This document shows, piece by piece, positions 7,566 through 37,733 of a stretch of DNA of 45,509 nucleotides. Every line of letters begins with the position of its first letter. The first letter of the stretch is position 1. Source of the stretch: Clostridia bacterium (lineage in GTDB: Bacteria > Bacillota > Peptococcia > Peptococcales > BICA1-8); NCBI GenBank assembly GCA_030154225.1, contig JASKKI010000012.1, positions 1-45,509 of the forward strand. The letters are read 5' to 3'. Under the pieces are notes generated by a model. It searched no databases, had not been told where the DNA came from, and saw nothing but the letters and a program-made list of their open reading frames with translations. A program made the position numbers and the translations under genes.

Positions 7566-8330
7566 TCACCTTTCTGATGATAGGTCTTGTTTTTTAGAAT
7601 ATACCCAACCCCAAACAGCAATTGACAAAAGTACCGCCCAAAAGGTTAGTTTCCACAAGGGGGATTTAGCAAAACTGTGCGGTAAAAATGCCAGTTCCGG
7701 GTGAGATACAGTATAAATTAATAATTTTATTCCCACCCATCCGACTATAAGGAAAGCAGCAGTTTCCAATCTGGGTCTACTGTGAATGAGAGAGACAAAA
7801 AAGTTGGCCGCAAAACGCATAATCAGCAACCCTGTTAACCCACCTGCGAATATTACGAGGAACTGCCCGGTATCCAAAGAACCAATGCTTCCCCAGTTAG
7901 TGGGGGGGAGCGTAACGGCCAGGGCAACCGCTGCTAATATAGAATCTACCGCAAAGGCAATGTCCGCTAACTCAACTTTTAGTACCGTTAACCAAAAGTT
8001 TGTTTGAACCGGTACCTGTGTAGAGTGGGAATCTGTTTTCTTACCATTATGATGTCTTATCAAATGGTTTATGGCGATAAACAGTAGATAAATAGCCCCT
8101 ATAGCTTGCACCTGCCAGATGTCTACCAGGAAGGATATGACAAAGAGAGAAGCAAACCGGAACACAAATGCCCCCAGCAGGCCATAAAATAATGCTTTTT
8201 TTCTGGTCTCAGGAGGAAGATGCTTCACTAAAATGGCCAGCACTAAAGCATTGTCAGCCGCTAAAAGCCCTTCCAGCCCTACAAGAATAACAAGCACCCA
8301 TCCGTATTCTAAAAGCAAAGTAAAATCCAT
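7566..8330 (-). CDS. TerC family integral membrane protein (probable Mn2+ exporter)
   Basis: 254-residue membrane protein with about seven helices. The TerC hallmarks are GLEGLLAADNALVLAILVKHLP at the N-terminus and a second acidic membrane motif, ELADIAFAVDSILAAVAL. These charged helices (E, D, N) are the likely metal path. TerC relatives of the YkoY/MeeF type help load manganese onto or export it from the cell. The ATG at 8330 is preferred over the TTG one codon upstream because GGAGAGG lies 5 bases before it. The gene sits directly behind a Mn2+ riboswitch, which supports a manganese-relief role rather than tellurite resistance. Confidence 0.92.
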   Translation of the reverse strand: MDFTLLLEYGWVLVILVGLEGLLAADNALVLAILVKHLPPETRKKALFYGLLGAFVFRFASLFVISFLVDIWQVQAIGAIYLLFIAINHLIRHHNGKKTDSHSTQVPVQTNFWLTVLKVELADIAFAVDSILAAVALAVTLPPTNWGSIGSLDTGQFLVIFAGGLTGLLIMRFAANFFVSLIHSRPRLETAAFLIVGWVGIKLLIYTVSHPELAFLPHSFAKSPLWKLTFWAVLLSIAVWGWVYSKKQDLSSER

Positions 8331-8376
8331 CAAAACCTCTCCTTATCAAGATATGTTAGTACTTAACAAAACAAAA

Positions 8377-8411: not shown

Positions 8412-8490
8412 CGCAAGCAGCATTATGTGCTGCCAGTAAAGCCGGAGAAAAATCTCGGAATGACGACTTTACAGTAAGCTACTCCCCTTT
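8404..8490 (-). promoter_or_regulatory. yybP-ykoY manganese riboswitch aptamer
   Basis: Read on the minus strand the RNA starts AAAGGGGAGTAGC, continues AAAGTCGTCATTCCGAG and CTCCGGCTTTACTGGCAG, and closes with GCGAGACCTTT. These are the conserved P1, L1 and L3 elements of the yybP-ykoY family, whose Mn2+-sensing function is established. Its place in the terC leader is the classical context. Confidence 0.94.
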
Positions 8491-8512
8491 AGCGCGCTAT
8501 TTGATTAAGAAG

Positions 8513-8774: not shown

Positions 8775-8803
8775 TTGACAGAAACATAAACTTTGGATAA
8801 ACT
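8775..8803 (+). promoter_or_regulatory. Promoter of the bicarbonate/carboxylation operon
   Basis: TTGACA (8775-8780), 17-base spacer, TAAACT (8798-8803). It is a strong sigma-A-type site at a suitable distance to start a leader of about 255 bases before the first gene at 9066. Confidence 0.75.
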
Positions 8804-8811
8804 GTTTATAA

Positions 8812-9024
8812 ATTAAAAAATATTCCAATTGGTTTTAGGTTTGTCTGTTTCATGGTAAGTGAAACGGGGAAACCATAGGATATTTAAAGCAATTTGGAGG
8901 TTGGACGAAAGGCTTTTTAGTTGACCTGGGTATCTTGATGATGGTCAGGTTGATTATTATGTCGGTTGTACAGCATACCAACGCTTTAACCTAATGATTC
9001 TTTAGGTTTTAGCGTTTTTTTTTT
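8812..9024 (+). promoter_or_regulatory. Structured leader RNA ending in a terminator (unidentified riboswitch or attenuator)
   Basis: No coding gene fits here. Visible structures are GTTTCA/TGAAAC (8847-8865), a 10-pair stem AGTTGACCTG/CAGGTTGATT with wobbles (8919-8955), and the terminator below. TTAGGTT at 8835-8841 duplicates the 3' arm of the terminator and could instead pair with AACCTAA (8988-8994), the usual antiterminator design. The stretch GGAAACC ... GGACGAAAGGC vaguely recalls a c-di-GMP-I aptamer, but key positions differ. I could not match it to a known class (T-box, purine, ZTP, THF, ydaO and cobalamin were considered). Confidence 0.6.
8980..9024 (+). terminator. Intrinsic terminator in the leader of the bicarbonate operon
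   Basis: AACGCT-tt-AACCTAA (8980-8994) pairs with TTAGGTT-tt-AGCGTT (9002-9016), followed by a run of T. It lies about 40 bases before the first gene's start, so it should control entry into the operon. Confidence 0.88.
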
Positions 9025-9065
9025 AAAATCAAAGTATTCATTATGAGTCAGGAGGTGTTTTCTAA

Positions 9066-9518
9066 TTGAATAAATTAGTTGGAATCATTGCCGGGAATCG
9101 GGCCGATGCCACGGTCATGGAACTGGCAAAGGATGTTTTAGTGGAGGTAAACGTGCCCACTGAACTGATTGTGCTATCTGATTACTCAGAACCTATAGAA
9201 TACTTACATACTTATGCTCTAAGTGCTGAATGTAAGGGAATTGAGTTAATAATAGCAGGGGAAAGTGACAAGCCTTTTCTTATTCCTTTATTAATTTCAA
9301 CTACTACGATTCCCATCATTCATGTGCCTATAAAAACAAGTGAAACCTTAAATCCTGAGTGTGTAGATAAAGCCGTTATATGGTGGGGCAAAAGACAGTT
9401 GCCTTATGCAACTACTTTACCCGGTGACGGGCATGTGGCGGGCTTGTGGGCAGCCCAAAAACTGGCGGTTGACCATCGGTTCATTTATGACAAGTTAATC
9501 AGTCTTTCAAATGCATAA
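9066..9518 (+). CDS. Degenerate PurE-like protein (AIR carboxylase fold, catalytic motifs missing)
   Basis: 150 residues alignable along their length with the real PurE encoded 2.9 kb downstream: TTIPIIHVPIKTSETL against [16 protein letters not shown], and HVAGLWAAQKLAVDHRFIYDKL against [21 protein letters not shown]. The family active-site signatures are lost: GSKSDW becomes GNRADA, SAHRTP becomes SDYSEP (no histidine), and [12 protein letters not shown] becomes AGESDKPFLIPL. It probably does not interconvert N5-CAIR and CAIR; a regulatory or CO2/nucleotide-sensing role is conceivable but unproven. The TTG start is chosen because GGAGGTG lies 8 to 9 bases upstream. It is first in the operon, behind the attenuator-like leader. 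Confidence 0.7.
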   Translation: MNKLVGIIAGNRADATVMELAKDVLVEVNVPTELIVLSDYSEPIEYLHTYALSAECKGIELIIAGESDKPFLIPLLISTTTIPIIHVPIKTSETLNPECVDKAVIWWGKRQLPYATTLPGDGHVAGLWAAQKLAVDHRFIYDKLISLSNA

Positions 9519-9621
9519 ATAAATGGGCGCACTATTTTGATCTTGATTACAATAAAGTTTTGGTTTAGACTGGACGCCATAGCTTTTGACCGACATATTT
9601 CTGTGAGGAGGGAATGGTTAA

Positions 9622-11001
9622 GTGGTATTCAAAAAGCTCCTTGTTGCCAACCGGGGGGAAATTGCTTTGCGGGTTTTACGTACATGTCGAGAAATGGGCA
9701 TTAAAACAGCAGTGATATATTCTGAAGCTGATAGTAATTCAAGACACGTTAAGGAGGCCGATGAAGCCTATTGTGTAGGACCCGCACCTGCTGTAGACAG
9801 CTATTTAAATACACCTAGAATTTTAGCCAAAGCCATGGTGGCCCACGTTGACGCCATTCACCCGGGGTATGGATTTTTGTCGGAAAATGGTGAGTTTGCT
9901 GAAATCTGCGAGAGGTATGGTTTTAAGTTTATTGGACCAAAATACGAAACGCTAAAACTTACCGGTAATAAACTTAAAATTAGAGAAATTGCCGCCAAGC
10001 TCGGTATACCGGTGGTACCGGGAAGTTATAAACCCATTAACAATAAGTTGGATGCGGTAGAGGTTGCCCGTGAAGTTGGATACCCTGTTTTGGTCAAACC
10101 AGCTGCCGGGGGAGGAGGCAGGGGTTTACGAAAAGTTAATAGTGAACATGAATTGGAAGCACAAATAGAGTCTTCTGCGCGAGAGGCCGGCATGACCTTT
10201 GAAACTAAGGGTATCTTTATTGAAAAGTACATTGAAAAAGCGAGACATGTTGAGGTGCAGGTTTTGGCAGATAACCATGGTAATGTAGTGCATTTAGGTG
10301 AACGGGACTGTACTATCCAGAGGCGTCACCAGAAGCTGATGGAGGAAAGCCCTTCTCCTGCGGTAGATGAAGAACTTCGCCGCCAAATAACTTCATCGGC
10401 CCTGACGTTGGTCAAAGGAGTAGGATACGTTAATGCAGGTACAGTAGAATTTTTATTGGACCAAGAGGGGCGGTATTACTTTATAGAAATGAATAGCAGA
10501 ATACAGGTGGAGCACCCAGTTACGGAAATGGTAAGCGGTGTTGACTTGATTAAACAGCAAATTCGTATTGCTGCTGGAGAAAAACTTGAGTTTTCTCAAG
10601 ATGATTTATCATTAAAGGGGTGGGCACTAGAATGCCGTGTTAACGCAGAAGACCCCTGTGAAGACTTTAGACCAAGTCTCGGTACTATTAGAAACTACAT
10701 CCCTCCTGCTGGCAGTTCGGTACGGGTGGATGATTATGTTTACAGTGGTTATAACATTCCCCCACATTATGATTCCTTGCTCGGAAAGGTGGTAGTCTGG
10801 GGTAATACCCGTTCTGAGGCAATCGAGCAAATGAAAAAAGCCCTAGATGAGTTTCATATAGAGGGAATAAAAACCACCATTTCATTCCACAAAAAGGTTT
10901 TGAACCATCCAGTATTTCTAGGAGGGACTGCATATACAAAATTTGCTGAAGAGTTAGTGGAAAAATTTGATTCAAAATATAATCAGTTCAATTTAAACTG
11001 A
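9622..11001 (+). CDS. accC: Biotin carboxylase (AccC-type), stand-alone
   Basis: Catalyses ATP- and bicarbonate-dependent carboxylation of biotin on a carrier protein. 459 residues, normal for AccC. N-terminal LLVANRGEIALRVLRTCREMG, HPGYGFLSENGEFAE, ATP-grasp glycine loop KPAAGGGGRGLRKV, GERDCTIQRRHQKLMEE and catalytic EMNSRIQVEHPVTE are all present, so it looks fully active. GTG start with GAGGAGGG 10 bases upstream. Unusually, no biotin carrier (accB) or carboxyltransferase gene is adjacent; neighbours are PurE/PurK, MpsC-like proteins and a bicarbonate transporter. It could serve acetyl-CoA, pyruvate or another carboxylase whose other subunits lie elsewhere. Confidence 0.93.
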   Translation: MVFKKLLVANRGEIALRVLRTCREMGIKTAVIYSEADSNSRHVKEADEAYCVGPAPAVDSYLNTPRILAKAMVAHVDAIHPGYGFLSENGEFAEICERYGFKFIGPKYETLKLTGNKLKIREIAAKLGIPVVPGSYKPINNKLDAVEVAREVGYPVLVKPAAGGGGRGLRKVNSEHELEAQIESSAREAGMTFETKGIFIEKYIEKARHVEVQVLADNHGNVVHLGERDCTIQRRHQKLMEESPSPAVDEELRRQITSSALTLVKGVGYVNAGTVEFLLDQEGRYYFIEMNSRIQVEHPVTEMVSGVDLIKQQIRIAAGEKLEFSQDDLSLKGWALECRVNAEDPCEDFRPSLGTIRNYIPPAGSSVRVDDYVYSGYNIPPHYDSLLGKVVVWGNTRSEAIEQMKKALDEFHIEGIKTTISFHKKVLNHPVFLGGTAYTKFAEELVEKFDSKYNQFNLN

Positions 11002-11022
11002 CAATTATAAGAGGGGGCAAGT

Positions 11023-11388
11023 TTGTTGCAACTAACCAAAGGCCGAGTTGAGGCTGAAATTAGCACCAGGATTATCCAGTTTGAAAAGGAACATATGGGT
11101 CGGGGCCCTACTGAGGCAAAGACATATATATTAAAAGACATGGTTTTGGTTCGGCTTAAAAATGTATTAACCCCGGCTGAACGTGAATTATCGAAAACCA
11201 AAGAAGGAAAGGTTTTAATCAAACAGGTAAGAATTCAGTTGTTTGAAAATTCCCGCTCCATGCTGGAAGAATTAATGGCAGATGTTTTGGATGCATCAGT
11301 TATGAGTCTACATTCGGATATCAGCACGGTTACTGGTGAACGGGTTATTGTGTTTATTTTGAACCGTAATGTGGAGGATGATTTTTAG
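11023..11388 (+). CDS. MpsC/DUF2294 family protein
   Basis: 121-residue cytoplasmic-looking protein with the family pattern FEKEHMGRGPTEAKTYILKDMVLVRLKNVLTPAERELS and the ending SLHSDISTVTGERVIVFIL. Pfam links this family by name (MpsC) to the Mps system, whose MpsAB proteins supply bicarbonate in staphylococci, but its own biochemical role is not established. It follows accC by 21 bases with a GAGGGGG ribosome site and begins with two TTG codons (11023 or 11026). A second, broken copy follows, and the two are clearly paralogous (SLHSDIST and SLHTDVST). Confidence 0.85.
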   Translation: MLQLTKGRVEAEISTRIIQFEKEHMGRGPTEAKTYILKDMVLVRLKNVLTPAERELSKTKEGKVLIKQVRIQLFENSRSMLEELMADVLDASVMSLHSDISTVTGERVIVFILNRNVEDDF

Positions 11389-11443
11389 CTAACAGTGCTC
11401 AATTGTTTTAGATGTGTTTATTAGGAGACGAGAGGTGTAGAGT

Positions 11444-11797
11444 ATGACTTCTTCTAAAGGAAAGATGGAAGATGAGATAACCAAGGCTATGATTCAATGG
11501 GAGAAGGAGTACAAAGGTAGAGGGCCTACCGACGTTAAAACCGATCTTATTCGTATTATGGTTCTCGTTTCCCTTACAGGAGTATTAATTCCGGCTGAAT
11601 AGCATTTGGCTAGGGACAAGGAAGGGATGGCTTTGATCAAAAAGTTGCGTCAGCAATTGGTTGAGCAAGGACGTCCAAAGTTAGAAGAGCTTATTTTTGA
11701 AATAACTTCTACAAAAGTTATAAGCTTACATACAGATGTAAGCACCAAGACCGGTGAAAGGGTCTTTGTCTTCGTGCTGGTGAAAGAAATTGGATAA
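11444..11797 (+). pseudogene. Second MpsC/DUF2294 paralogue, interrupted by an amber codon
   Basis: Starts MTSSKGKMEDEITKAMIQW at an ATG with a nearby GGAGACGAGAGG. The conserved YKGRGPTDVKTDLIRIMVLV and VISLHTDVSTKTGERVFVFVL show the same family as the gene before. A TAG at 11600-11602 interrupts the frame between PAE and HLARDKEG, exactly where the paralogue reads PAERELSKTKEG. A CAG-to-TAG change explains it. The remainder is perfectly in frame and undamaged, so the mutation is recent, or the codon is read through. The track shows only the second half. Confidence 0.85.
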
Positions 11798-11862
11798 ATG
11801 AAACTACAACTTTCTTAATGTTGGAAGGCATTTTAAAAGGTAGGGATATCGGTTAAAGTGCG

Positions 11863-11906
11863 ATCCAATACCAAATGGAAGGTAATTTGGTATTGGATTT
11901 TTTATT
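11863..11906 (+). terminator. Strong intrinsic terminator immediately before purE
   Basis: ATCCAATACCAAAT (11863-11876) and ATTTGGTATTGGAT (11885-11898) form a perfect 14-bp stem with an 8-base loop, then TTTTTTATTTTTT. Only about 30 bases separate it from the purE start, too little for a full promoter plus RBS, so it probably attenuates purE-purK-sbtA rather than just ending the upstream genes. Confidence 0.93.
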
Positions 11907-11937
11907 TTTTGCTTTTTATCAAAGGAGGCAGAGTGAT

Positions 11938-12420
11938 TTGAAGTCTGTTGTTTCGGTAATCATGGGAAGCAAGTCGGACTGGGACGTAATGAAGGAGGCC
12001 TGTTCAATCTTGGAAGAATTAGGTATTACTTATGCGAGAGAGATAGTGTCGGCTCACCGGACTCCTGACAGGCTCTTCGCTTTTGCGGAGAATGCTGCGG
12101 GTCAAGGGATTAAAATAATCATAGCGGGAGCAGGGGGGGCTGCCCACCTGCCAGGAATGATAGCAGCCAAGACAACCCTTCCAGTTATCGGAGTGCCTGT
12201 TCCTGCTACTCACCTGCAGGGGGTGGATTCTCTCCTATCTATTGTACAAATGCCGGCGGGCGTACCAGTAGCTACTGTAGCGATCGGTGTCAGCGGAGCG
12301 AAGAATGCGGCACTATTAGCTGCTCAAATTTTAGCATTAGAAGATGAGGAACTAAGAAGGAGACTGCAAATACGCAGGGATGAAGTGGCAAGACAAGTGG
12401 AAACGGAGGGATTTTTTTAA
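11938..12420 (+). CDS. purE: N5-carboxyaminoimidazole ribonucleotide mutase PurE (class I)
   Basis: Converts N5-CAIR to CAIR in purine synthesis, together with PurK. 160 residues with the full class I signatures: [24 protein letters not shown] (catalytic histidine), [17 protein letters not shown] and [19 protein letters not shown]. The TTG at 11938 is chosen because AAAGGAGG lies 9 bases upstream; the longer track start lies inside the terminator stem. It overlaps no gene but precedes purK by only 19 bases. Having purE here, away from other purine genes and beside bicarbonate transport, suggests the carboxylation step is what this operon serves. Confidence 0.95.
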
Positions 12421-12439
12421 GGTGGTACGCAAGTTGATA

Positions 12440-13546
12440 ATGCCCGGATCAACCATTGGACTTTTAGGAGGAGGACAACTGGGGAGAATGGTAGCCCTTG
12501 AGGCTAAAAAAATGGGCTATAAAGTTATTTGTTTGGATCCTACTCAGGATTCCCCCTGTGGCCAAGTGGCTGACGAGCAGATTGTCGCTTCTTTTGATAA
12601 CTTGGAAGCTGCACAAAAACTGGGAGAGCGGTCAGATGTAATAATTTATGAATTTGAAAGTATTGACCTCGAAATAGTAAAACAACTGGAAAAAAAGTAT
12701 TACCTACCCCAAAAGAGTAGTATTCTGGCCATCAGCCAAAACCGTGTGGAGGAAAAAGAACAGCTAAAAAAAGCGGGTTTTCCCGTTGCACCTTTTCGCG
12801 GCATTACTAACCCCCGGCAACTGGAGCAAGCAATAACAGACCTTGGCTATCCATGTATATTGAAAAGCTCCAGGGGAGGGTACGATGGCAAGGGGCAAAT
12901 GGTTATCACCAATGATTGTCAGCTTGATACTGCGAGGGAAATGGTAAGGAAGGGTAAGGAGGAGTGGGTTCTGGAGAAAAAGATATTTTTCTCTCATGAA
13001 ATTTCAGTTATTGCGGCTAGAAAAGAAACAGGGGAAATGGCAGTATATCCTGCGGCTGAAAATATTCATCGGGAAAACATACTTCATGTGACCGTAGTGC
13101 CGGCTCGTGTTGCTTCCCGGTTTGAATTGGAGGCATCGGAAATTACGGCAGAAATAGCTCGAGCTTTTAAAGTTGTAGGCCTTTTGGCTGTTGAATTTTT
13201 TATTACGCCTAAGGGGTTAGTGGTTAACGAAATTGCTCCCCGTCCTCACAACTCGGGCCACTACACTTGGGAGGCTTGCTTTACATCTCAGTTTGAACAG
13301 CTTATCAGAGCGGTCTGCGGTCTTCAGCTTGGATCAACCAAACTAGTGACTCCAGTGGTGATGGTTAATGTATTTGGGGAAAGTTTGGCCCGGGTAGTCA
13401 AACAGGTGCCTTATTTTCCGGAAAATGTAAAGTTTCACTTTTACGGCAAACGAGGGAGTCATGCGGGAAAAAGAAAAATGGGCCATTTAATCATCAGGAC
13501 CAGCGACGCTGAGCAGGCAATGAGTTGGGCCAAGGGATTTATATAA
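12440..13546 (+). CDS. purK: N5-carboxyaminoimidazole ribonucleotide synthase PurK
   Basis: ATP-grasp enzyme that uses ATP and bicarbonate to carboxylate AIR. 368 residues from the preferred ATG at 12440. N-terminal IGLLGGGQLGRMVALEAKKMG, mid-region CILKSSRGGYDGKGQ, VLEKKIFFSHEISVIAAR and NEIAPRPHNSGHYTWEAC are diagnostic. The track start at 12380 lies inside purE and is unlikely. AAGGTGG at 12419 could serve the TTG at 12434 or the ATG; GTG 12422 lacks a proper RBS. The high bicarbonate requirement of PurK gives a direct reason for sharing an operon with the SbtA-type transporter that follows. Confidence 0.94.
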   Translation: MPGSTIGLLGGGQLGRMVALEAKKMGYKVICLDPTQDSPCGQVADEQIVASFDNLEAAQKLGERSDVIIYEFESIDLEIVKQLEKKYYLPQKSSILAISQNRVEEKEQLKKAGFPVAPFRGITNPRQLEQAITDLGYPCILKSSRGGYDGKGQMVITNDCQLDTAREMVRKGKEEWVLEKKIFFSHEISVIAARKETGEMAVYPAAENIHRENILHVTVVPARVASRFELEASEITAEIARAFKVVGLLAVEFFITPKGLVVNEIAPRPHNSGHYTWEACFTSQFEQLIRAVCGLQLGSTKLVTPVVMVNVFGESLARVVKQVPYFPENVKFHFYGKRGSHAGKRKMGHLIIRTSDAEQAMSWAKGFI

Positions 13547-13591
13547 AATTACCATGGATGAAACAATGAATGTACTCGAGGAGGAGGGTTT

Positions 13592-14593
13592 ATGGCATAC
13601 ATGTTGGACCTGGCGATTGCTAATCTTACATCGCCCGTAGTCTTGTTTTTTGGTTTAGGCTTGTTAATCACTTTAGTCAGGGCCAAGGTCGAATTTCCTA
13701 GCGCCATAAGTGACTTTATTTCCATCTACCTTCTGGTGGCAATAGGACTTAAAGGAGGCGCAGCCATTGCTTCAGCCGGGTTGAGTTCTGTCTTTATCAC
13801 TATTGCCGGTGCGGTCTTTCTTGGGTTTATAATTCCGGTATATTCTTTTTACATACTGTGGCGAATCGGTAAATTAAAGTCTGATGATGCAGCTGCCATA
13901 GCTGGTCATTATGGTTCTATCAGCGTGGTTACCTTTATGGCGGCGACGGCTTTTCTCAATAACTTTGAAATCAACTATGAGGGCTACTTGAACGGTTTAC
14001 CCGCAGTAATGGAAATACCAGCGATAATAGTGGCTTTAGTCCTTGCCTCCCGGGCAAAAAACCTAAAGCAGGACAGTTCCGCAAAGCAAGAGATGTTCTT
14101 CGTTCAAGTAATCAAAAAGGTAGTATTTAGTAAAAGTGTTGTTTTGTTGCTAGGTGCTATGGGGGTTGGCTACATCTCCGGGCCGAAAGGAATGGAATCC
14201 GTTGAGTTTTTCTTCAAAGATTTATTTATGGGAGTGCTCAGCCTATTCATGTTGGAGATGGGAATAGTTGCAGCCGGCAAACTAAGCGACTTAAAGAAGG
14301 CAGGGGCATTTCTTGTAATTTTCGGTATCTTGATGCCGCCTTTTAATGCCGTAATTGGTACGCTAGTCGGAGTTTATGCCGGGTTGAGCGTAGGAGGCAT
14401 CACTCTTCTAGCGGTACTTGCAGCCAGTAGTTCCTATATTGTAGCGCCGGCAGCCATGCGTGTTTCCCTGCCTAAAGCAAATCCGGCTCTGTATCTAGGG
14501 GCCTCCCTTGGAGTTACACTTCCTTTCAATTTAATTTTCGGGATACCTCTCTACTATTTTATGGCAGATTATTTCTTGGTTATGTTTAGATGA
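13592..14593 (+). CDS. sbtA: SbtA-type sodium-dependent bicarbonate symporter
   Basis: 333-residue membrane protein with about ten hydrophobic segments. It matches the SbtA family (formerly DUF897): LTSPVVLFFGLGLLITLVRAKVEFP, SIYLLVAIGLKGGAAIA, GHYGSISVVTFMAATAFL and AASSSYIVAPAAMRVSLPKANPALYLG are typical. In cyanobacteria SbtA imports HCO3- with Na+; the role here is inferred by family. GAGGAGGG lies 6 bases before the ATG, and the gene follows purK by 45 bases. No PII-like SbtB partner gene is seen next to it. It gives the block its supply function for biotin carboxylase and PurK. Confidence 0.88.
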   Translation: MAYMLDLAIANLTSPVVLFFGLGLLITLVRAKVEFPSAISDFISIYLLVAIGLKGGAAIASAGLSSVFITIAGAVFLGFIIPVYSFYILWRIGKLKSDDAAAIAGHYGSISVVTFMAATAFLNNFEINYEGYLNGLPAVMEIPAIIVALVLASRAKNLKQDSSAKQEMFFVQVIKKVVFSKSVVLLLGAMGVGYISGPKGMESVEFFFKDLFMGVLSLFMLEMGIVAAGKLSDLKKAGAFLVIFGILMPPFNAVIGTLVGVYAGLSVGGITLLAVLAASSSYIVAPAAMRVSLPKANPALYLGASLGVTLPFNLIFGIPLYYFMADYFLVMFR

Positions 14594-30715: not shown

Positions 30716-30757
30716 AGAGAAAATTCAAAAAAAGTAAAAAAGTAAGGAGTGATTAAT

Positions 30758-32017
30758 ATGTTAGTATTTATTGGTGCTATTATTGTTATTGCTACCGTAT
30801 ATTTTTTAATTAAACAGTATGAATCCCGTATGGTTTTATTTACTGCAGGTCTTTTAATGGCTTTAATAGCTTTGCAGCCTATGGCTGGCCTTGATGCTTT
30901 TGCAAAGAGAATGACTACCGGTGGACTCATTCAAGCTATTTGTTCTGTTATGGGTTTTGCTTTTGTTATGAAATATACAGAATGTGATAAACACTTAGTA
31001 AATCTACTGGCTAATGGTTTAGCTAAAGTTAGACCTATTTTAATTCCAGGAGCAGTTTTAGGGACATTTGCAATCAATATTGCTTTACCAAGTGCTGCAG
31101 GGGTTTCCGCTGCCGTTGGTGCCATATTTATTCCATTATTAATCGGGGCTGGAATTCACCCGGCTACAGCTGCTACAGCGGTATTTGCTGGGACTTTTGG
31201 AAGTATGTATAATCCAGGTTTATCCCATAATCCTTTTATAGCTAAACTGGCCAATGTTGATGTTATGGATGTTATAGCCGTTCACTCAACGGCAGACCTT
31301 GCTGCTGGAATAATTGGAGCCATTAGTTTAACTATTGTAGCTAAGATACTTAAAGAAGATAAAGGATATATTGATGAAACAGCAGCTACATCATTAGAAA
31401 CCAAAGAAACATTCAATACAAATATTCTTTATGCTATTGTACCCGTTATTCCGGTAGTATTACTGGTTTTAGGGTCATCGGTAATTCCTGCTATCAAAAT
31501 GGGTGTTCCCCAAGCAATGCTGATAGGGGCCGTTATTGGTGTGGTAGTAACTCGAAAAAATCCTGCAGAAGTCACCAAGCAGTTTTTTGCAGGGATGGGT
31601 GATGCTTATGCCAAAATCATGGGTATTATTATTGCTGCCGCTGTGTTTGTTGAAGGTATGAAAGCAGTTGGGTTAGTTGATGCATTTATAAACATGCTAA
31701 TTAATTCTGAAAGTGTAGTTAAAATTGCCGCTACTTTTGGGCCGTTCCTTTTAGCTGTAGTATCAGGTTCCGGTGATGCCGCCGCCTTTGCCTTTAACGA
31801 AGCTGTAACACCCCATGCTGCAAAATTTAGTTTGGAAATTGTTAATATGGGTAGTATTGCTGCTTTAGGTGGTGCCTTAGGCCGTACTATGTCTCCAATC
31901 GCCGGTGCAGCTATTGTTTGTTCTTCCATTGCCGGTGTCAACCCCATGGAATTAGCTAAACGAAACGCACCTGGTATGATAATTGCAACTATAGTAGCTA
32001 TGTTCATTCTACTTTAA
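30758..32017 (+). CDS. DcuC-family anaerobic C4-dicarboxylate transporter
   Basis: 419 residues, about 12 membrane segments. The stretch ICSVMGFAFVMKYTECDKHLV is very close to the DcuC family, and GTFGSMYNPGLSHNPFIAKLA and SGSGDAAAFAFNEAVTPH are also typical. DcuC carriers exchange or export succinate and related acids; the present genes suggest a carboxylated amino acid, hydantoin or ureide as substrate. Start ATG at 30758 with AAGGAG 9 bases upstream is preferred over the track's GTG. First gene of a five-gene transport and hydrolase operon. Confidence 0.85.
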   Translation: MLVFIGAIIVIATVYFLIKQYESRMVLFTAGLLMALIALQPMAGLDAFAKRMTTGGLIQAICSVMGFAFVMKYTECDKHLVNLLANGLAKVRPILIPGAVLGTFAINIALPSAAGVSAAVGAIFIPLLIGAGIHPATAATAVFAGTFGSMYNPGLSHNPFIAKLANVDVMDVIAVHSTADLAAGIIGAISLTIVAKILKEDKGYIDETAATSLETKETFNTNILYAIVPVIPVVLLVLGSSVIPAIKMGVPQAMLIGAVIGVVVTRKNPAEVTKQFFAGMGDAYAKIMGIIIAAAVFVEGMKAVGLVDAFINMLINSESVVKIAATFGPFLLAVVSGSGDAAAFAFNEAVTPHAAKFSLEIVNMGSIAALGGALGRTMSPIAGAAIVCSSIAGVNPMELAKRNAPGMIIATIVAMFILL

Positions 32018-32048: not shown

Positions 32049-33293
32049 ATGAAAGTTAATAAAGAGAGGTTAAAACAGGATTTTGATAATATTGCCCGGT
32101 TTGGCAAATTAGATAACGGTGGGGTTACCAGATTGGCCTTTTCCGAAGAAGATTTAAAAGCCCGCCAGTATTTACTTGATGTCATGAAATCTCTTAACCT
32201 GAAAGTGAGTATTGATGCTTTTGGTAACATCCGTGGTAGGCGAGAAGGGCAGTTTGATCTTCCGCCTGTCATGATTGGTTCCCACCTTGATACAGTACCT
32301 AATGGTGGCCATTATGATGGTGTAATAGGAGTTATTGGTGCTTTAGAAGTAATCAGGGTTTTAAATGAAAATAACATTGTTACCAAACGACCTATTGAGG
32401 TGATTAATTTTTCCTGTGAAGAATCCAGCAGATTTAGAGCCGGTACTTTAGGTAGTAAGGTAATGGTAGGAAAATTTACTAAAGACAAGTTAAAAACTTC
32501 AATAGATAAAGATGGTATTAGTTTGTATGATGCTTTAAAACAGGCAGGTTATGATCCTGACCGATTGGAAGATGCACGCATAAATAACGGTGATATTTAT
32601 GCCTTTATGGAAATGCATATCGAACAGGGACCGGTATTGGAACAGGAAAAATACCAAGTTGGGATTGTAACAGCTATTGCTGCTCCCACAAGATTTAAAG
32701 TACTTATTGAAGGTAGAGCCGACCATTCCGGTAATACTCCGATGAATATGCGTAAAGATGCATTAACAGGTGCCAGTGCATTAATTTTAGGAGTTGAACA
32801 GATAGCCAAGAGTGAAGCAGGTGAAAGAACGGTAGGAACTGTAGGCTATGTATATGTAGAACCTGGTGCTATGAATGTTGTTCCCGGTAAAGTTGAGCTG
32901 GGTATTGATATTAGAGATATTAACAGTACAGATAAAAAGGTTGCCGTGAAAAAAGTAATAGATTTAATCCATAAAATCCAGAAACAAAGGAATCTAGAGA
33001 TCAAATATGAAATTTTAGCTGATGAAGAGCCTGTGGTTTTATCAAATAAGATAATAAGCTGCCTAGAAAATGAAGCGAAAAAGTACGGTTTTTCATATAA
33101 ACTTATGCCCAGTGGGGCTGGTCATGATGCTATGTATATGACCAATGTTACTAATGTAGGCATGATTTTTATACCCAGTATTAATGGGGTCAGTCATAAT
33201 ATTGCTGAATTCAGTCGTATGGAGGATATAAAAATGGGCACAGATTTGCTTTTAAAGGCTACAATAAAATTAGCCCAAGAAGAATGTGAATAA
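32049..33293 (+). CDS. N-carbamoyl-L-amino acid hydrolase / allantoate amidohydrolase (M20 family)
   Basis: 414 residues. Cleaves N-carbamoyl groups (ureido compounds) to give amino acid, CO2 and NH3. Family signatures: GNIRGRREGQ, IGSHLDTVPNGGHYDGVIGV (metal histidine and aspartate), INFSCEESSRF, MHIEQGPVLEQEKYQVGIV, DHSGNTPMNMRKDAL and PSGAGHDAMYM. All metal ligands are visible, so it should be active. It follows the carrier by 31 bases with GGAG and is followed by a decayed M20 relative and a hydantoinase-like amidohydrolase. Confidence 0.93.
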   Translation: MKVNKERLKQDFDNIARFGKLDNGGVTRLAFSEEDLKARQYLLDVMKSLNLKVSIDAFGNIRGRREGQFDLPPVMIGSHLDTVPNGGHYDGVIGVIGALEVIRVLNENNIVTKRPIEVINFSCEESSRFRAGTLGSKVMVGKFTKDKLKTSIDKDGISLYDALKQAGYDPDRLEDARINNGDIYAFMEMHIEQGPVLEQEKYQVGIVTAIAAPTRFKVLIEGRADHSGNTPMNMRKDALTGASALILGVEQIAKSEAGERTVGTVGYVYVEPGAMNVVPGKVELGIDIRDINSTDKKVAVKKVIDLIHKIQKQRNLEIKYEILADEEPVVLSNKIISCLENEAKKYGFSYKLMPSGAGHDAMYMTNVTNVGMIFIPSINGVSHNIAEFSRMEDIKMGTDLLLKATIKLAQEECE

Positions 33294-33510
33294 ATGCAGA
33301 TTAATATCTGAGAATTGGTAAAAAGTTTTGAGCCTCTGTTGGTAGAATACCGTCGAGATTTTCACAAACATCCTGAGTCTGGTTGGGCAGAATTTAGAAC
33401 TGGCCGCCAAAGTTATGAATCTGTTTTAGTTCAAGGATCAGAGTTACTGATAAGGATAGTATTGGATTTAATGGGGTAGATTTTAATAAGGAGGTAAGAA
33501 GAGTGTCTTA
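33294..33510 (+). pseudogene. Remnant of an M20 amidohydrolase (AbgB-like)
   Basis: Starts one base after the carbamoylase stop. ATG CAG ATT AAT ATC then TGA (33309-33311), and ELVKSFEPLLVEYRRDFHKH continues in frame, the family's N-terminal signature; a TGG-to-TGA change fits. The sequence continues PESGWAEFRT then loses almost the whole enzyme and shifts frame: TDKDSIGFNGVDFNKEV (near 33453-33503) resembles the family in another frame. The last bases double as the RBS of the next gene. Neither product can be functional. Confidence 0.8.
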
Positions 33511-34915
33511 CAAATACGACCTAATACTGCAAAAAGGTTATGTGGTTGACCCAACTAGTAAAAGGGATGGAATAATGGACATAGCTATAGCCGCTGGCCA
33601 GATAGTAGAAATAGCTCCGGAAATTAATTCTACCCTTGCCGCAGAAAATTTTGATTTACAAGGCTATTATGTTCTCCCGGGGTTGGTTGAATTGCATATG
33701 CACGCTTCTGCCTGGCTGGGAGGCAGGTTCGGACATAAAATGCTTGTTCAGGCGGGAGTAACCTCTGCTTTGGATATGTCCGGTCCTATAGACAGTGTTC
33801 TGGATATAGCCAGGGATTATGGTGTAGGTTTAAATATTGCTTGTATTAAATATGTACGACCACAGCATACGGTCAATAGTACAAATCCCGATAAACAGGA
33901 ATTAGAGGAGTTGCTGGAACGCTGCCTGAAAAAAGGAGCAATTGGTTTAAAACTTCTAGGTGGACATTATCCTTTAACTCCTGAAGCCACAGCAAAAGCT
34001 ATTGAAGTGGCAAATGAAAACAAAGCCTATGTTGCTTTCCACGCCGGGACCTTGGAGAAAGGTTCTAATATTGAAGGGTTTTTAGAAGCTGTTGAATTAG
34101 CTGATGGGAAAGCATTACATCTAGCCCATATCAACAGTTACTGCCGGGGGTTAGTGCGACCATATATGACCGAAACGGAAGAGGCTATCATAGCTTTGGA
34201 AAATAACCCCAATATTCGCTCAGAATCCTATCTCTCACCGGTAAATGGTACTAGTGCCAAGTGTTTTAATGGAGAACCACAAAGTAATGTAACCAAAAAA
34301 TGTTTAATTACCGGGGGTTTTAAGGCAACTGAAGAGGGCTTGGAAAAAGCCATTATGGCGGGATGGGCCCAAATTAACATGGAAGCTGGAGGTAGAATGA
34401 TTTTAGCCACTGGTGAAGAAGCGGTAAACTTTTGGCGGCAAAAGGGAACAGATACTACAGTAAGTTTTAATGTTAATCCTCCTGAACCTCGCATTAGACT
34501 GGTAACGGCAAAGAGGAGAAATGGGAAATTTATTGTAGACTGCATAAGTACAGATGGTGGAGGTATTCCCCGTAATGTAACAGTAGAAATGGGGCTAGCT
34601 TTGGTTAAATTACAGGCTCTGACCATGCAGGAGTTTGTGATAAAAACTAGCTTTAATCCTGCCAGGATTCTGGGTCTTAATAATAAAGGACATTTCACAC
34701 TAGGGGCTGATGCAGACATTACTGTTGTTGATTTGGAAAGGCAAAAACCTATTATGAGTATTGCCAATGGTAAAGTCATTATGTTTAATGGTTATGTTTG
34801 CGGCCAAGGTAGTAAAATTATCACCACAGCTTCAGGAGTAGACTATATAAAAGAGAAAGGACTAGAGCCTATAGTTGTTCATTTGGATAAAAGTGGTTTT
34901 TATCAAGGATTGTAA
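33503..34915 (+). CDS. Amidohydrolase of the dihydroorotase/hydantoinase superfamily
   Basis: 470 residues. The first metal motif is GLVELHMHASAWLGG (HxH), AVELADGKALHLAHINSY supplies further histidines, and VDCISTDGGGIPRN probably supplies the catalytic aspartate. The family includes dihydroorotases, hydantoinases and D-aminoacylases; position beside a carbamoylase and dicarboxylate carriers suggests ring opening of a hydantoin, ureide or cyclic amide. RBS AAGGAGGTAAGAAG with GTG start. I could not assign the exact substrate. It is longer than AllB-type hydantoinases by little. Confidence 0.85.
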   Translation: MSYKYDLILQKGYVVDPTSKRDGIMDIAIAAGQIVEIAPEINSTLAAENFDLQGYYVLPGLVELHMHASAWLGGRFGHKMLVQAGVTSALDMSGPIDSVLDIARDYGVGLNIACIKYVRPQHTVNSTNPDKQELEELLERCLKKGAIGLKLLGGHYPLTPEATAKAIEVANENKAYVAFHAGTLEKGSNIEGFLEAVELADGKALHLAHINSYCRGLVRPYMTETEEAIIALENNPNIRSESYLSPVNGTSAKCFNGEPQSNVTKKCLITGGFKATEEGLEKAIMAGWAQINMEAGGRMILATGEEAVNFWRQKGTDTTVSFNVNPPEPRIRLVTAKRRNGKFIVDCISTDGGGIPRNVTVEMGLALVKLQALTMQEFVIKTSFNPARILGLNNKGHFTLGADADITVVDLERQKPIMSIANGKVIMFNGYVCGQGSKIITTASGVDYIKEKGLEPIVVHLDKSGFYQGL

Positions 34916-35132: not shown

Positions 35133-36356
35133 TTGGGTAAAATGAGACTATCCACAAAAATTTTAGTAGGTTTAGTTTTGGGTGTTATTGTAGGTCTATT
35201 CGTACCAACTGCATTTGCCAACACATTTCTTAAACCAATTGGGACTTTATTTATACGTTTAATCAAAATGGTTATTGTACCTTTAGTTTTCTCTTCCTTG
35301 GTTGTCGGGGCTTCTAGTGTTGGTGATGTTAAAAAACTGGGACGCATGGGTGGTAAAACAATTGCTTATTATTTAATTACTACAGCTATTGCAGTTATTA
35401 TAGGTCTTACTTTAGGTAACATCTTACAGCCTGGTGCCGGTTTGGAATTGCCGGTAGATGCAAAATATGAAGGAAAAGAAGCTCCTGCCATAGTCGATGT
35501 TTTATTAAATGTTATTCCCACTAATCCGCTAGATGCTTTAGTTAATGGTAATATGTTACAAATCATATTCTTTGCTATATTTGTAGGTATTAGTATCACC
35601 GTTGTAGGCAGTAAAGCTGAGCCAGTAAAAAGTTTCTTTGATGGTTTTGCCGAGATAATGTACAAAATCACCGGGTTAGTAATGGAAGTTGCTCCTTATG
35701 GTGTATTTGGTTTAATTGCTCCTGTAGTAGCCCAATATGGACTTGATGTACTGGCACCTCTGGCAATGGTTATTTTTGCGGTATATCTAGGTGCTATTAT
35801 CCATGGGGCAGTAGTCTACTCAACGGCGGTTAAAGTTATTGGTAAGATGAGCCCTATTACTTTCTTTAAAGGTATTTTCCCTGCTCAGGTAATTGCCTTC
35901 TCTACCTGTAGTAGTGCCGGGACTTTACCTGCGACAATCCAGTCTGTGGAAGAAAACCTGGGTGTTTCCAATGATGTAGCTAGCTTTGTTCTACCTTTAG
36001 GGGCTACCATTAACATGGATGGTACTTCCCTGTATCAGGGTGTTTGTGCACTCTTTGTAGCTCAGGTTTATGGCCTAGATTTATCCATGGGTCAACAACT
36101 TACTGTAGTTCTCACAGGTACTTTAGCTTCTATCGGGGCTGCAGGGGTTCCAGGGGCTGGTTTGATCATGTTAACTATGGTTTTGGCTTCTGTAGGTTTA
36201 CCTTTGGACGGTGTTGCACTGGTTGCAGGTATTGACCGTATTTTAGATATGGCCCGTACAACTTTAAATGTTACAGGTGATGCTTCAGCTGCAGTAATTG
36301 TAGCTGCTACTGAAAATGATTTAACTATTCCTAGTGATAGTAACATTTCTGCCTAA
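35133..36356 (+). CDS. Dicarboxylate/amino acid:cation symporter (GltP/DctA, DAACS family)
   Basis: 407 residues. Shared family features: LRNxxxx opening replaced by LSTKILVGLVLGVIVGLFVP, FIRLIKMVIVPLVFSSLVVG, the serine-rich loop FSTCSSAGTLPATIQ, NMDGTSLYQGVCALFVAQ (sodium and substrate binding) and GIDRILDMARTTLNVTGD. All binding motifs are intact, and eight helices with two re-entrant loops are expected. TTG start with AAGGAGGT, or ATG at 35142. It supplies glutamate, aspartate or C4-acids, probably for the neighbouring catabolic genes. Confidence 0.93.
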   Translation: MGKMRLSTKILVGLVLGVIVGLFVPTAFANTFLKPIGTLFIRLIKMVIVPLVFSSLVVGASSVGDVKKLGRMGGKTIAYYLITTAIAVIIGLTLGNILQPGAGLELPVDAKYEGKEAPAIVDVLLNVIPTNPLDALVNGNMLQIIFFAIFVGISITVVGSKAEPVKSFFDGFAEIMYKITGLVMEVAPYGVFGLIAPVVAQYGLDVLAPLAMVIFAVYLGAIIHGAVVYSTAVKVIGKMSPITFFKGIFPAQVIAFSTCSSAGTLPATIQSVEENLGVSNDVASFVLPLGATINMDGTSLYQGVCALFVAQVYGLDLSMGQQLTVVLTGTLASIGAAGVPGAGLIMLTMVLASVGLPLDGVALVAGIDRILDMARTTLNVTGDASAAVIVAATENDLTIPSDSNISA

Positions 36357-36418: not shown

Positions 36419-36446
36419 CGTGACCGGTCGGGTCACGTTTTATTTT
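36419..36446. terminator. Bidirectional terminator between the symporter and tupA
   Basis: CGTGACC-ggtcg-GGTCACG with TTTTATTTT on the plus side and CTTTATTAT on the minus side. Both convergent genes end beside it. Confidence 0.85.
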
Positions 36447-37279
36447 GCGAAAAATAACTGCTGTCCTTTAACTTTATATCCATTAATTATTTCTTTACCT
36501 TCCTGAGATGTAATAAACTCAATGAAAGCCATGGCACCTTTATAATTAACACTGGGATGCTTGTCCGGATTTATAGCTATGATACCATAAGGGTTAAGAA
36601 GAGGAGGGTCACCTTCTATTAAAACCTCTAATTTCAAATTATCTTTCATACTTATAAAGGTTCCTCTATCAGTTAAGGTATAGCCCTGTTTTTCACTGGT
36701 CATTACTAAAGTATCTCCCATTCCCTTGTTGACAGCCAGGTACCAGTCACCTTCAGGTTTCACTCCTGTTTTTTCCCATAGTTGCTTTTCTTTTTTATGT
36801 GTACCTGAATTATCTCCCCTGGATAAAAACTCACCTTTTTTTGTTTCTGACAATTTCTTTAATCCTTCAAATATTCCTAATCCTTTAATACCGGCTGGAT
36901 CGTTTTTGGGGCCTACTATAACAAAGTCATTATACATAACATCTCTACGGTTAACACCAAAACCGTCGGCAACAAACTTATCTTCTGCAGCTCTGGCATG
37001 AACTAAAACAACATCACAATCTCCCAGTTCACCCGTTTTAAGGGCCTGACCTGTCCCTTGGGAAATAACATCAACTTTATAGCCGGTTTTCTTTTCGAAA
37101 ACAGGTAAAAGCTGATCCAGTAATCCCGAATCCTTGGTACTGGTAGTAGTTGCCAAAACAATTGTTTTATCTTCCTGTGGTTCAGAACCTTGCTTATTAG
37201 TTTTAGGTTCTTGTTTAGCACATCCTACCATGGAAAAAATAATAAGTACTATTAAAAGATAAGTTAATAATTTTCTCAT
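36440..37279 (-). CDS. tupA: Tungstate ABC transporter substrate-binding protein TupA
   Basis: 279 residues. Lipobox IFSMVGC after a short hydrophobic leader. TTTSTKDSGLLDQLLPVFEKKTGY, SQGTGQALKTGELGDCDVVLVHARAAED and DFVIVGPKNDPAGI are typical of TupA, and SRGDNSGTHKKEKQLW holds the oxoanion-binding residues. It binds tungstate selectively in known members. Start ATG at 37279 with GGAGGGATA is chosen over the track start. No tupB or tupC permease/ATPase gene follows, since the next gene is convergent. A Moco/Tuco-type riboswitch in the leader ties it to tungsten cofactor supply. Confidence 0.93.
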   Translation of the reverse strand: MRKLLTYLLIVLIIFSMVGCAKQEPKTNKQGSEPQEDKTIVLATTTSTKDSGLLDQLLPVFEKKTGYKVDVISQGTGQALKTGELGDCDVVLVHARAAEDKFVADGFGVNRRDVMYNDFVIVGPKNDPAGIKGLGIFEGLKKLSETKKGEFLSRGDNSGTHKKEKQLWEKTGVKPEGDWYLAVNKGMGDTLVMTSEKQGYTLTDRGTFISMKDNLKLEVLIEGDPPLLNPYGIIAINPDKHPSVNYKGAMAFIEFITSQEGKEIINGYKVKGQQLFFAK

Positions 37280-37331
37280 AAATATATCCCTCCTCAAAAA
37301 ATTAAAGTATAGACTTGGCATTGTATTTTTT

Positions 37332-37549: not shown

Positions 37550-37682
37550 CCCCAAGGCACCCTAAAACTGGAATTACCTTTATAATCCTCCTTTCCACAA
37601 TGGGAGGCATCGATGTTTCCAACGATACCCTACAGGTTTGCACTCCATAGGTATTAAACCTGAAGGAATTACAAACTCGGAG
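37548..37682 (-). promoter_or_regulatory. Molybdenum/tungsten cofactor (Moco/Tuco) riboswitch
   Basis: On the minus strand CTCCGAG opens and CTTGGGGAG closes the element. The best match to the Moco family is GATGCCTCCCATTGTGGAAAGG, resembling the conserved GCCUCCC ... GGAAAGG core of the E. coli moaA element, preceded by a hairpin ATCG-ttggaaacat-CGAT in the position of the E. coli one. Known members occur upstream of cofactor synthesis and molybdate or tungstate transport genes. Exact ligand (Moco or Tuco) is unclear; the tupA context favours tungsten. Confidence 0.78.
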
Positions 37683-37733
37683 ATATTAAGTTCAAAATAA
37701 TTATATTATGTTACTAATGATTTGTCTAGAAAT

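Follow-up and report, generated by a model that had tools for sequence, protein, structure and literature searches.

In pyr operons of the PyrR type, a gene for a small regulator is followed by an attenuator and then by biosynthetic genes; attenuator repeats lie around the regulator gene, and antiterminator and terminator are mutually exclusive. In the BglG/LicT systems, the RAT element is a hairpin with internal loops that overlaps the 5′ arm of a terminator, and the regulator gene lies beside this RNA target. Here we analyze a stretch of 45,509 nucleotides (the window) from a Clostridia bacterium, which makes up one entire contig (JASKKI010000012.1, our C120); the draft genome to which it belongs (GCA_030154225.1) measures 2.68 Mb. 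A block of inorganic-carbon genes in the window contains two terminator-bearing structured leaders, a strong one at 11820-11907 and a diverged one at 8893-9023, both on the + strand and both absent from a preliminary description of this DNA. We lean toward reading the block as an inorganic-carbon operon under a new cis-acting RNA family, with MpsC, a PF10057 (DUF2294) protein encoded in the block, as a trans-acting regulator that reads inorganic-carbon status.

The locus resembles the PyrR system in its order of regulator, attenuator, and target, in the repeats around the regulator gene, and in the mutual exclusion of antiterminator and terminator; it differs in that MpsC matches neither PyrR nor any protein in the Protein Data Bank (PDB), in that the hairpin is a different one, and in that the targets are carbon genes. 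With BglG/LicT it shares an internal-loop hairpin placed over the 5′ arm of an intrinsic terminator and an adjoining regulator gene, but the hairpin is larger and has symmetric 2×2 loops, no phosphotransferase system genes are involved, and MpsC matches PF10057 alone in Pfam, without CAT RNA-binding or PRD domains. Like the riboswitches of Rfam 15, for example those for cyclic di-AMP (c-di-AMP), S-adenosylmethionine, or the molybdenum cofactor (Moco), it is a structured, covarying leader with a terminator as expression platform. Unlike them, no Rfam 15 family matches any tested leader instance at gathering score, and permissive searches turned up nothing relevant at this site, so that a known riboswitch was rejected.

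The leader RNA family

A common leader was recognized in the intergenic DNA of the window and its relatives (our handles for genomes, contigs, and loci begin with G, C, and L): between MpsC and PurE in the window and in Clostridiales PH28_bin88 (LAKY01, G154), between MpsC and SbtA in G133 and G129, and before the gene for the epsilon subunit of carbon monoxide dehydrogenase (CODH) in G129 and G402. Six leaders went into a covariance model, R1, which was run on 399 genomes without gene information. Its matches outside the training set fall directly after mpsC or within carbon clusters, and it also detects longer leaders 5′ of the PurE-like and SbtA genes in G154 and G118. Weak R1 matches at three loci (L138, L139, and L140) and antisense matches were judged false and kept out of a refined model, R2, built from 23 sequences. 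At E ≤ 1e-4, R2 gives 39 matches in 28 of 398 genomes of the phylum, seven species of one genus (g155) among them. The diverged leader of the window scores 19.2 bits when R2 is run with filters off (E = 0.00024 for 291 bases) and folds at z = -6.05; leaders homologous to it precede PurE-like genes at L060 and L061. In family f55, three genomes have SbtA without MpsC, and R2 did not find the RNA in the two of these that were scanned.

When the aptamer part is folded alone with RNAfold, it forms a single long hairpin of three helices (P1-loop-P2-loop-P3) with symmetric 2×2 internal loops that contain conserved purines; when the full leader is folded, the terminator forms instead. The 3′ strand of P1 is also the 5′ arm of the terminator, whose stem lies at about 11862-11899 in the strong copy, and in computed folding the P1-P2-P3 fold and the terminator are mutually exclusive. 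A leader with two exclusive folds would therefore decide transcription into the downstream carbon genes. Among 42 distinct sequences, 13 of the 15 pairs of P1, P2, and P3 vary on both sides. Changes on both sides fill 108 cells as against 38.8 in shuffles, none of 500 shuffles reaches the covariation score, and the signal is lost when the pairing partners are slid; the alignment includes three rows from weak antisense matches, the only effect of which is to lower these figures. Compensatory changes are also seen in a smaller sequence set. P1 covaries too (GC to AU, AU to CG and UA), and because P1 is in neither model's structure, these changes are independent of model fitting, with the reservation that one strand of P1, the 3′ one, doubles as the 5′ arm of the terminator. 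A covarying conserved structure and a terminator that computed folding finds exclusive with it are the marks of a cis-regulatory RNA, and on this comparative sequence evidence we regard the family as almost certainly real. The RNA, its protein neighbor, and its regulon appear to be new, and the device appears to be a transcription attenuator; a literature search of incomplete coverage found neither a riboswitch for bicarbonate nor a pertinent paper on DUF2294.

The leader usually begins a few bases past the mpsC stop codon, which could mean that it is a mere conserved end-of-gene terminator of mpsC, inherited with the operon. This explanation is very improbable and largely refuted: copies that have no adjoining mpsC precede SbtA, PurE-like, LarB, NuoE, and CODH genes, and compensatory changes occur in P2 and P3, outside the terminator hairpin.

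MpsC, the carbon genes, and the signal

The association of the RNA with mpsC is strong. In 21 of the 34 matches outside the R1 training set, mpsC lies upstream at a distance of at most 250 nt (for any one match, the chance expectation is about 2e-5), with the RNA typically starting 20-40 nt past the end of the MpsC domain, and MpsC is present in 26 of the 28 RNA-positive genomes versus 113 of 379 overall (Fisher p = 5e-13). In four genomes (G162, G193, G078, and G183), RNAs lie on both sides of mpsC. The genes downstream are those of SbtA, CODH-epsilon and pyruvate synthase, PurE, PurK, the PurE-like protein, LarB and, in some cases, transporters. Archaeal-type phosphoenolpyruvate (PEP) carboxylase follows the RNA in G228, G297, G322, and G141, PEP carboxykinase in G242, LarB, PEP carboxylase, and DUF6671 in G376, MpsC1 and AccC in G077, a NuoE-like subunit in G129 and G195, and DUF4914, PurK, and PurE in genus g155. 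LarB is homologous to PurE and uses CO2/HCO3- for carboxylation. Most of the targets are thus CO2/HCO3- genes, and the RNA very probably controls mainly carbon genes. We note that in the genus with seven RNA-positive species a DUF4914 gene stands between the RNA and purK-purE (L219, 2297-5957); DUF4914 may be a carboxylation enzyme. DUF6671 recurs beside SbtA, pyruvate synthase, or LarB-PEP carboxylase (L060, 7614-8471; L055, 14541-15455; L218, 1719-2600), and LarB is found near SbtA at L060 (12022-12783) and L064 (9065-9838). MpsC also occurs, with no RNA detected, beside OadB, a FocA-type formate channel, or FdhD, a CO2/formate context (L228, L235, L236, and L240).

To our knowledge, no function has been assigned to MpsC/DUF2294 so far. 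PF10057 is found fused to an XRE helix-turn-helix or to response-regulator receivers, or in tandem (L205, L206-L212). The AlphaFold model of MpsC1 is confident, with a predicted local distance difference test score of 91, but resembles no solved structure significantly, and neither Pfam nor the PDB nor Foldseek links MpsC to the phosphoribosyltransferase fold of PyrR. In Staphylococcus aureus, where a protein of the same family is tied to bicarbonate supply, transport by MpsAB does not require mpsC, which is set apart from mpsAB by a weak terminator, whereas here MpsC accompanies SbtA and carboxylases (PMC6689103 for S. aureus). Because of the helix-turn-helix and receiver fusions, the unmatched fold, and the dispensability and weak terminator in S. 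aureus, we favor MpsC as a regulator over MpsC as part of a transporter. MpsC, which the preliminary description tied by name to the bicarbonate-related Mps system, is thus probably no transport component. Within the block, the region covered in this respect, neither MpsA nor MpsB is encoded.

Taken together, we picture SbtA importing HCO3-, which would be consumed by PurK/PurE and by the biotin carboxylase, the latter probably acting together with PycB as a pyruvate carboxylase. The nascent RNA would form either the long P1-P2-P3 hairpin with its 2×2 internal loops or the intrinsic terminator, in which the 3′ strand of P1 is engaged. The small MpsC, usually encoded directly upstream, would, if it works like the regulators of pyrR and bglG operons, bind the hairpin and adjust readthrough to the carbon status. 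In the window, purE, purK, and sbtA would answer to the strong copy, and the block as a whole, transcribed from the promoter-like site at 8775, to the diverged one. The sequences themselves show the RNA family, its covariation, the exclusive terminator, the tie to mpsC, and the CO2/HCO3- nature of most downstream genes; that MpsC binds the RNA, what the signal is, and in which direction control runs are parts that we infer: MpsC as the RNA-binding partner of the leader has a little better than an even chance, and carbon is the likely signal. More tentatively, and at somewhat less than even chance, MpsC/DUF2294 may be a new RNA-binding attenuation family that senses CO2/HCO3-, directly or via a messenger, and that forms with the leader a widespread Firmicutes regulon for inorganic-carbon import and carboxylation. 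If so, a protein of 120 residues and a short RNA would gather the import of bicarbonate, purine carboxylation, anaplerosis (by PEP carboxylase and pyruvate carboxylase), and CO2-fixing pyruvate synthase into one regulon under a dedicated RNA-level control of bicarbonate, and this would be one of the earliest examples of inorganic-carbon use being controlled through RNA. Carbon sensing in such bacteria would then be directly testable, and engineered CO2-fixing bacteria could be given the device as a part that responds to CO2.

Several observations weigh against an MpsC-read carbon attenuator. No RNA-binding fold is recognized for MpsC, which has no PDB sequence relative and a best Foldseek E of 0.03. 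In the alignments, P2, P3, and the terminator are fitted to the model, and 23 of the matches of R2 had also served to train it. One genome that is 98% complete (G376) bears the RNA before LarB-PEP carboxylase and has no detectable MpsC; likewise, no intact MpsC was detected in the RNA-positive G297 (63% complete). RNAs also lie beside broken mpsC genes in the window, on G118:C65, and in G297, although in the first two of these the part of MpsC could be played in trans by an intact copy. Finally, at L224, L232, L190, L237, and L239, weak or borderline diverged leaders follow MpsC and precede genes for KimA-like or TrkA K+ uptake proteins, so the signal may not be carbon.

Because of G376, the broken mpsC genes, and these K+ transporter members, two other explanations keep some weight. 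The RNA could be a true riboswitch for a small ligand, either HCO3-/CO2 itself or some metabolite of carboxylation (PEP and oxaloacetate are examples), with MpsC merely a co-clustered carbon protein. We consider this unlikely: its compact covarying hairpin, conserved purine internal loops, and mutually exclusive terminator fit such a device, as do the RNA of G376 and the RNAs beside broken mpsC genes, but MpsC accompanies the RNA in nearly all of its genomes, most of the RNAs begin just past mpsC, a gene beyond control of the leader's terminator, and the RNA-mpsC-RNA layout and the fusions of MpsC to regulatory domains point to a protein partner. Less likely still is that the same attenuator answers to an ionic or second-messenger signal (K+, Na+, pH, or c-di-AMP) and that the carbon genes are one branch of its regulon. 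The targets PEP carboxylase, PEP carboxykinase, PurE, PurK, LarB, and pyruvate synthase/CODH are CO2/HCO3- enzymes, which are not known as a K+ or c-di-AMP regulon; for such a signal speak the family members before KimA-like and TrkA genes, the Na+-driven nature of SbtA, and the SbtB-like P-II genes that adjoin SbtA in relatives.

The inorganic-carbon gene block

The preliminary description had listed seven colinear same-strand genes and proposed a bicarbonate supply-and-use unit. All seven are present on the + strand, and open reading frames and family profiles place no other gene among them. The position 8775 from which that description had started the block is that of a sigma-A-like promoter site, TTGACA-17-TAAACT (8775-8803, 10 of 12 consensus bases), which is weak evidence because promoter-like sites are barely enriched relative to shuffles. 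The diverged leader with its terminator comes next, 5′ of a PurE-like gene (9066-9518). The PurE-like protein scores 59.6 bits against the TIGR01162 equivalog cut-off of 149.6 and is without the PurE catalytic residues: a motif check found neither the SAHRTP histidine nor the GGAAH segment, and this histidine is missing in all four relatives compared. The biotin carboxylase (AccC/PycA, 9622-11001) follows, and then the intact MpsC1 (11023-11388, PF10057, 135 bits) and MpsC2 (11447-11797), a PF10057 match with a reading frame interrupted by TAG at 11600-11602. As no pyrrolysyl-tRNA synthetase (PylS) scores above cut-off in this genome, a reading as pyrrolysine was rejected and MpsC2 is most likely a broken gene. 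A PylS (353 bits) is encoded at L243 (G129:C3), in a genome that also bears four copies of the RNA.

Beyond the strong leader lies purE (N5-carboxyaminoimidazole ribonucleotide (N5-CAIR) mutase; 11938-12420, start approximate, with a TTG start after AAAGGAGG), the product of which is over the TIGR01162 cut-off (214.7 bits) and has the SAHRTP motif. It is followed by purK (N5-CAIR synthase, a user of ATP and HCO3-; 12422-13546, NF004675, 459 bits, starting at GTG 12422 or ATG 12440). A third PurE is encoded amid purine genes on contig C79; the window PurE and PurK are therefore an additional pair, of which PurK uses bicarbonate. The last gene (13592-14593) encodes a homologue of the SbtA-family Na+-dependent bicarbonate transporters, a full PF05982 protein over cut-off (377 bits). 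Its sole PDB relative is Synechocystis SbtA Slr1512, whose SSSD reads SSSY here. The cyanobacterial SbtA/SbtB pair has the same PF05982 transporter, and relatives of the window have an SbtB-like P-II candidate directly after SbtA; in contrast to that pair, the hosts are not cyanobacteria with carboxysomes but Firmicutes of heterotrophic or acetogen-like type, the window block has no P-II gene, and an RNA leader is the candidate for control.

The biotin carboxylase exceeds the TIGR00514 cut-off (664.7 versus 626.5 bits), keeps its active-site motifs, and is the only one in the genome, which rules out a chance second copy of accC. Contig C12 encodes a carboxyltransferase of the PycB/OadA type that carries a biotin domain of its own (L109; 626 aa, PF00682+PF02436+PF00364, NF006761 868.6 bits). 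Since the carboxylase is the sole one and this protein has a biotin domain, the two probably make up a split pyruvate carboxylase, with the carboxylase as PycA and the C12 protein as PycB (an identity as OadA being less likely). The preliminary description had remarked on a stand-alone accC without accB; no accB does lie beside it, but the C12 protein would account for the oddity. A second biotin carrier, a biotin carboxyl carrier protein (BCCP), is encoded in an oadG-BCCP-oadB operon on contig C100.

The expectation that the order accC-DUF2294-purE-purK-sbtA would be conserved was not borne out: no other SbtA occurs in the 46 class genomes examined, and distant relatives are ordered otherwise. 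Because SbtA is missing from the remaining class genomes, the block was probably acquired. Within the phylum, SbtA occurs in 16 of 399 genomes. All seven genes are clustered in G154, rearranged relative to the window: MpsC1, AccC, and PurE-like are divergent from MpsC2, PurE, PurK, ferredoxin, DUF6671, SbtA, and a P-II protein. In G118, PurE-like, MpsC1, and AccC are divergent from SbtA, and at L067 the PurE-like/AccC pair alone is kept. Because the PurE-like protein is paired with the biotin carboxylase at all three loci, we take the two as a conserved pair. An alignment-based profile scan found PurE-like orthologues at these three loci alone (L067, L068/G154, and L069/G118); a single-sequence scan of genome contigs gave no match. 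In G133 and G129, SbtA stands together with MpsC, CODH-epsilon, and pyruvate synthase genes, and G402 has these genes in one locus. With the same genes clustered in G154 and the RNA preceding CO2/HCO3- genes in many genomes, there is good support for the proposal that the block is a genuine unit for supplying and using bicarbonate. That purine and biotin genes and a transporter form an ordinary chance cluster in a rearranged draft genome is the least probable explanation of all: gene order is indeed not conserved in the class, but the same seven genes are together in G154, the PurE-like gene accompanies the carboxylase gene in three other genomes, and the carboxylase is single-copy.

At L067 (9980-11862, in G429), the PurE-like and biotin carboxylase genes form a two-gene unit, and no clear biotin carrier was found in that genome. 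Elsewhere in the window, a diverged yybP-ykoY manganese riboswitch (8415-8499, - strand; 27.6 bits, below gathering) precedes a TerC gene (7566-8333), and hydantoinase/N-carbamoyl amidase-type genes (32049-33293 and 33503-34915) are flanked by transporters (30749-32017 and 35133-36356). A Moco/tungsten riboswitch (RF01055, 73 bits; 37572-37694, - strand) lies upstream of the gene for the substrate-binding protein of an anion ATP-binding cassette transporter (36440-37321, - strand).

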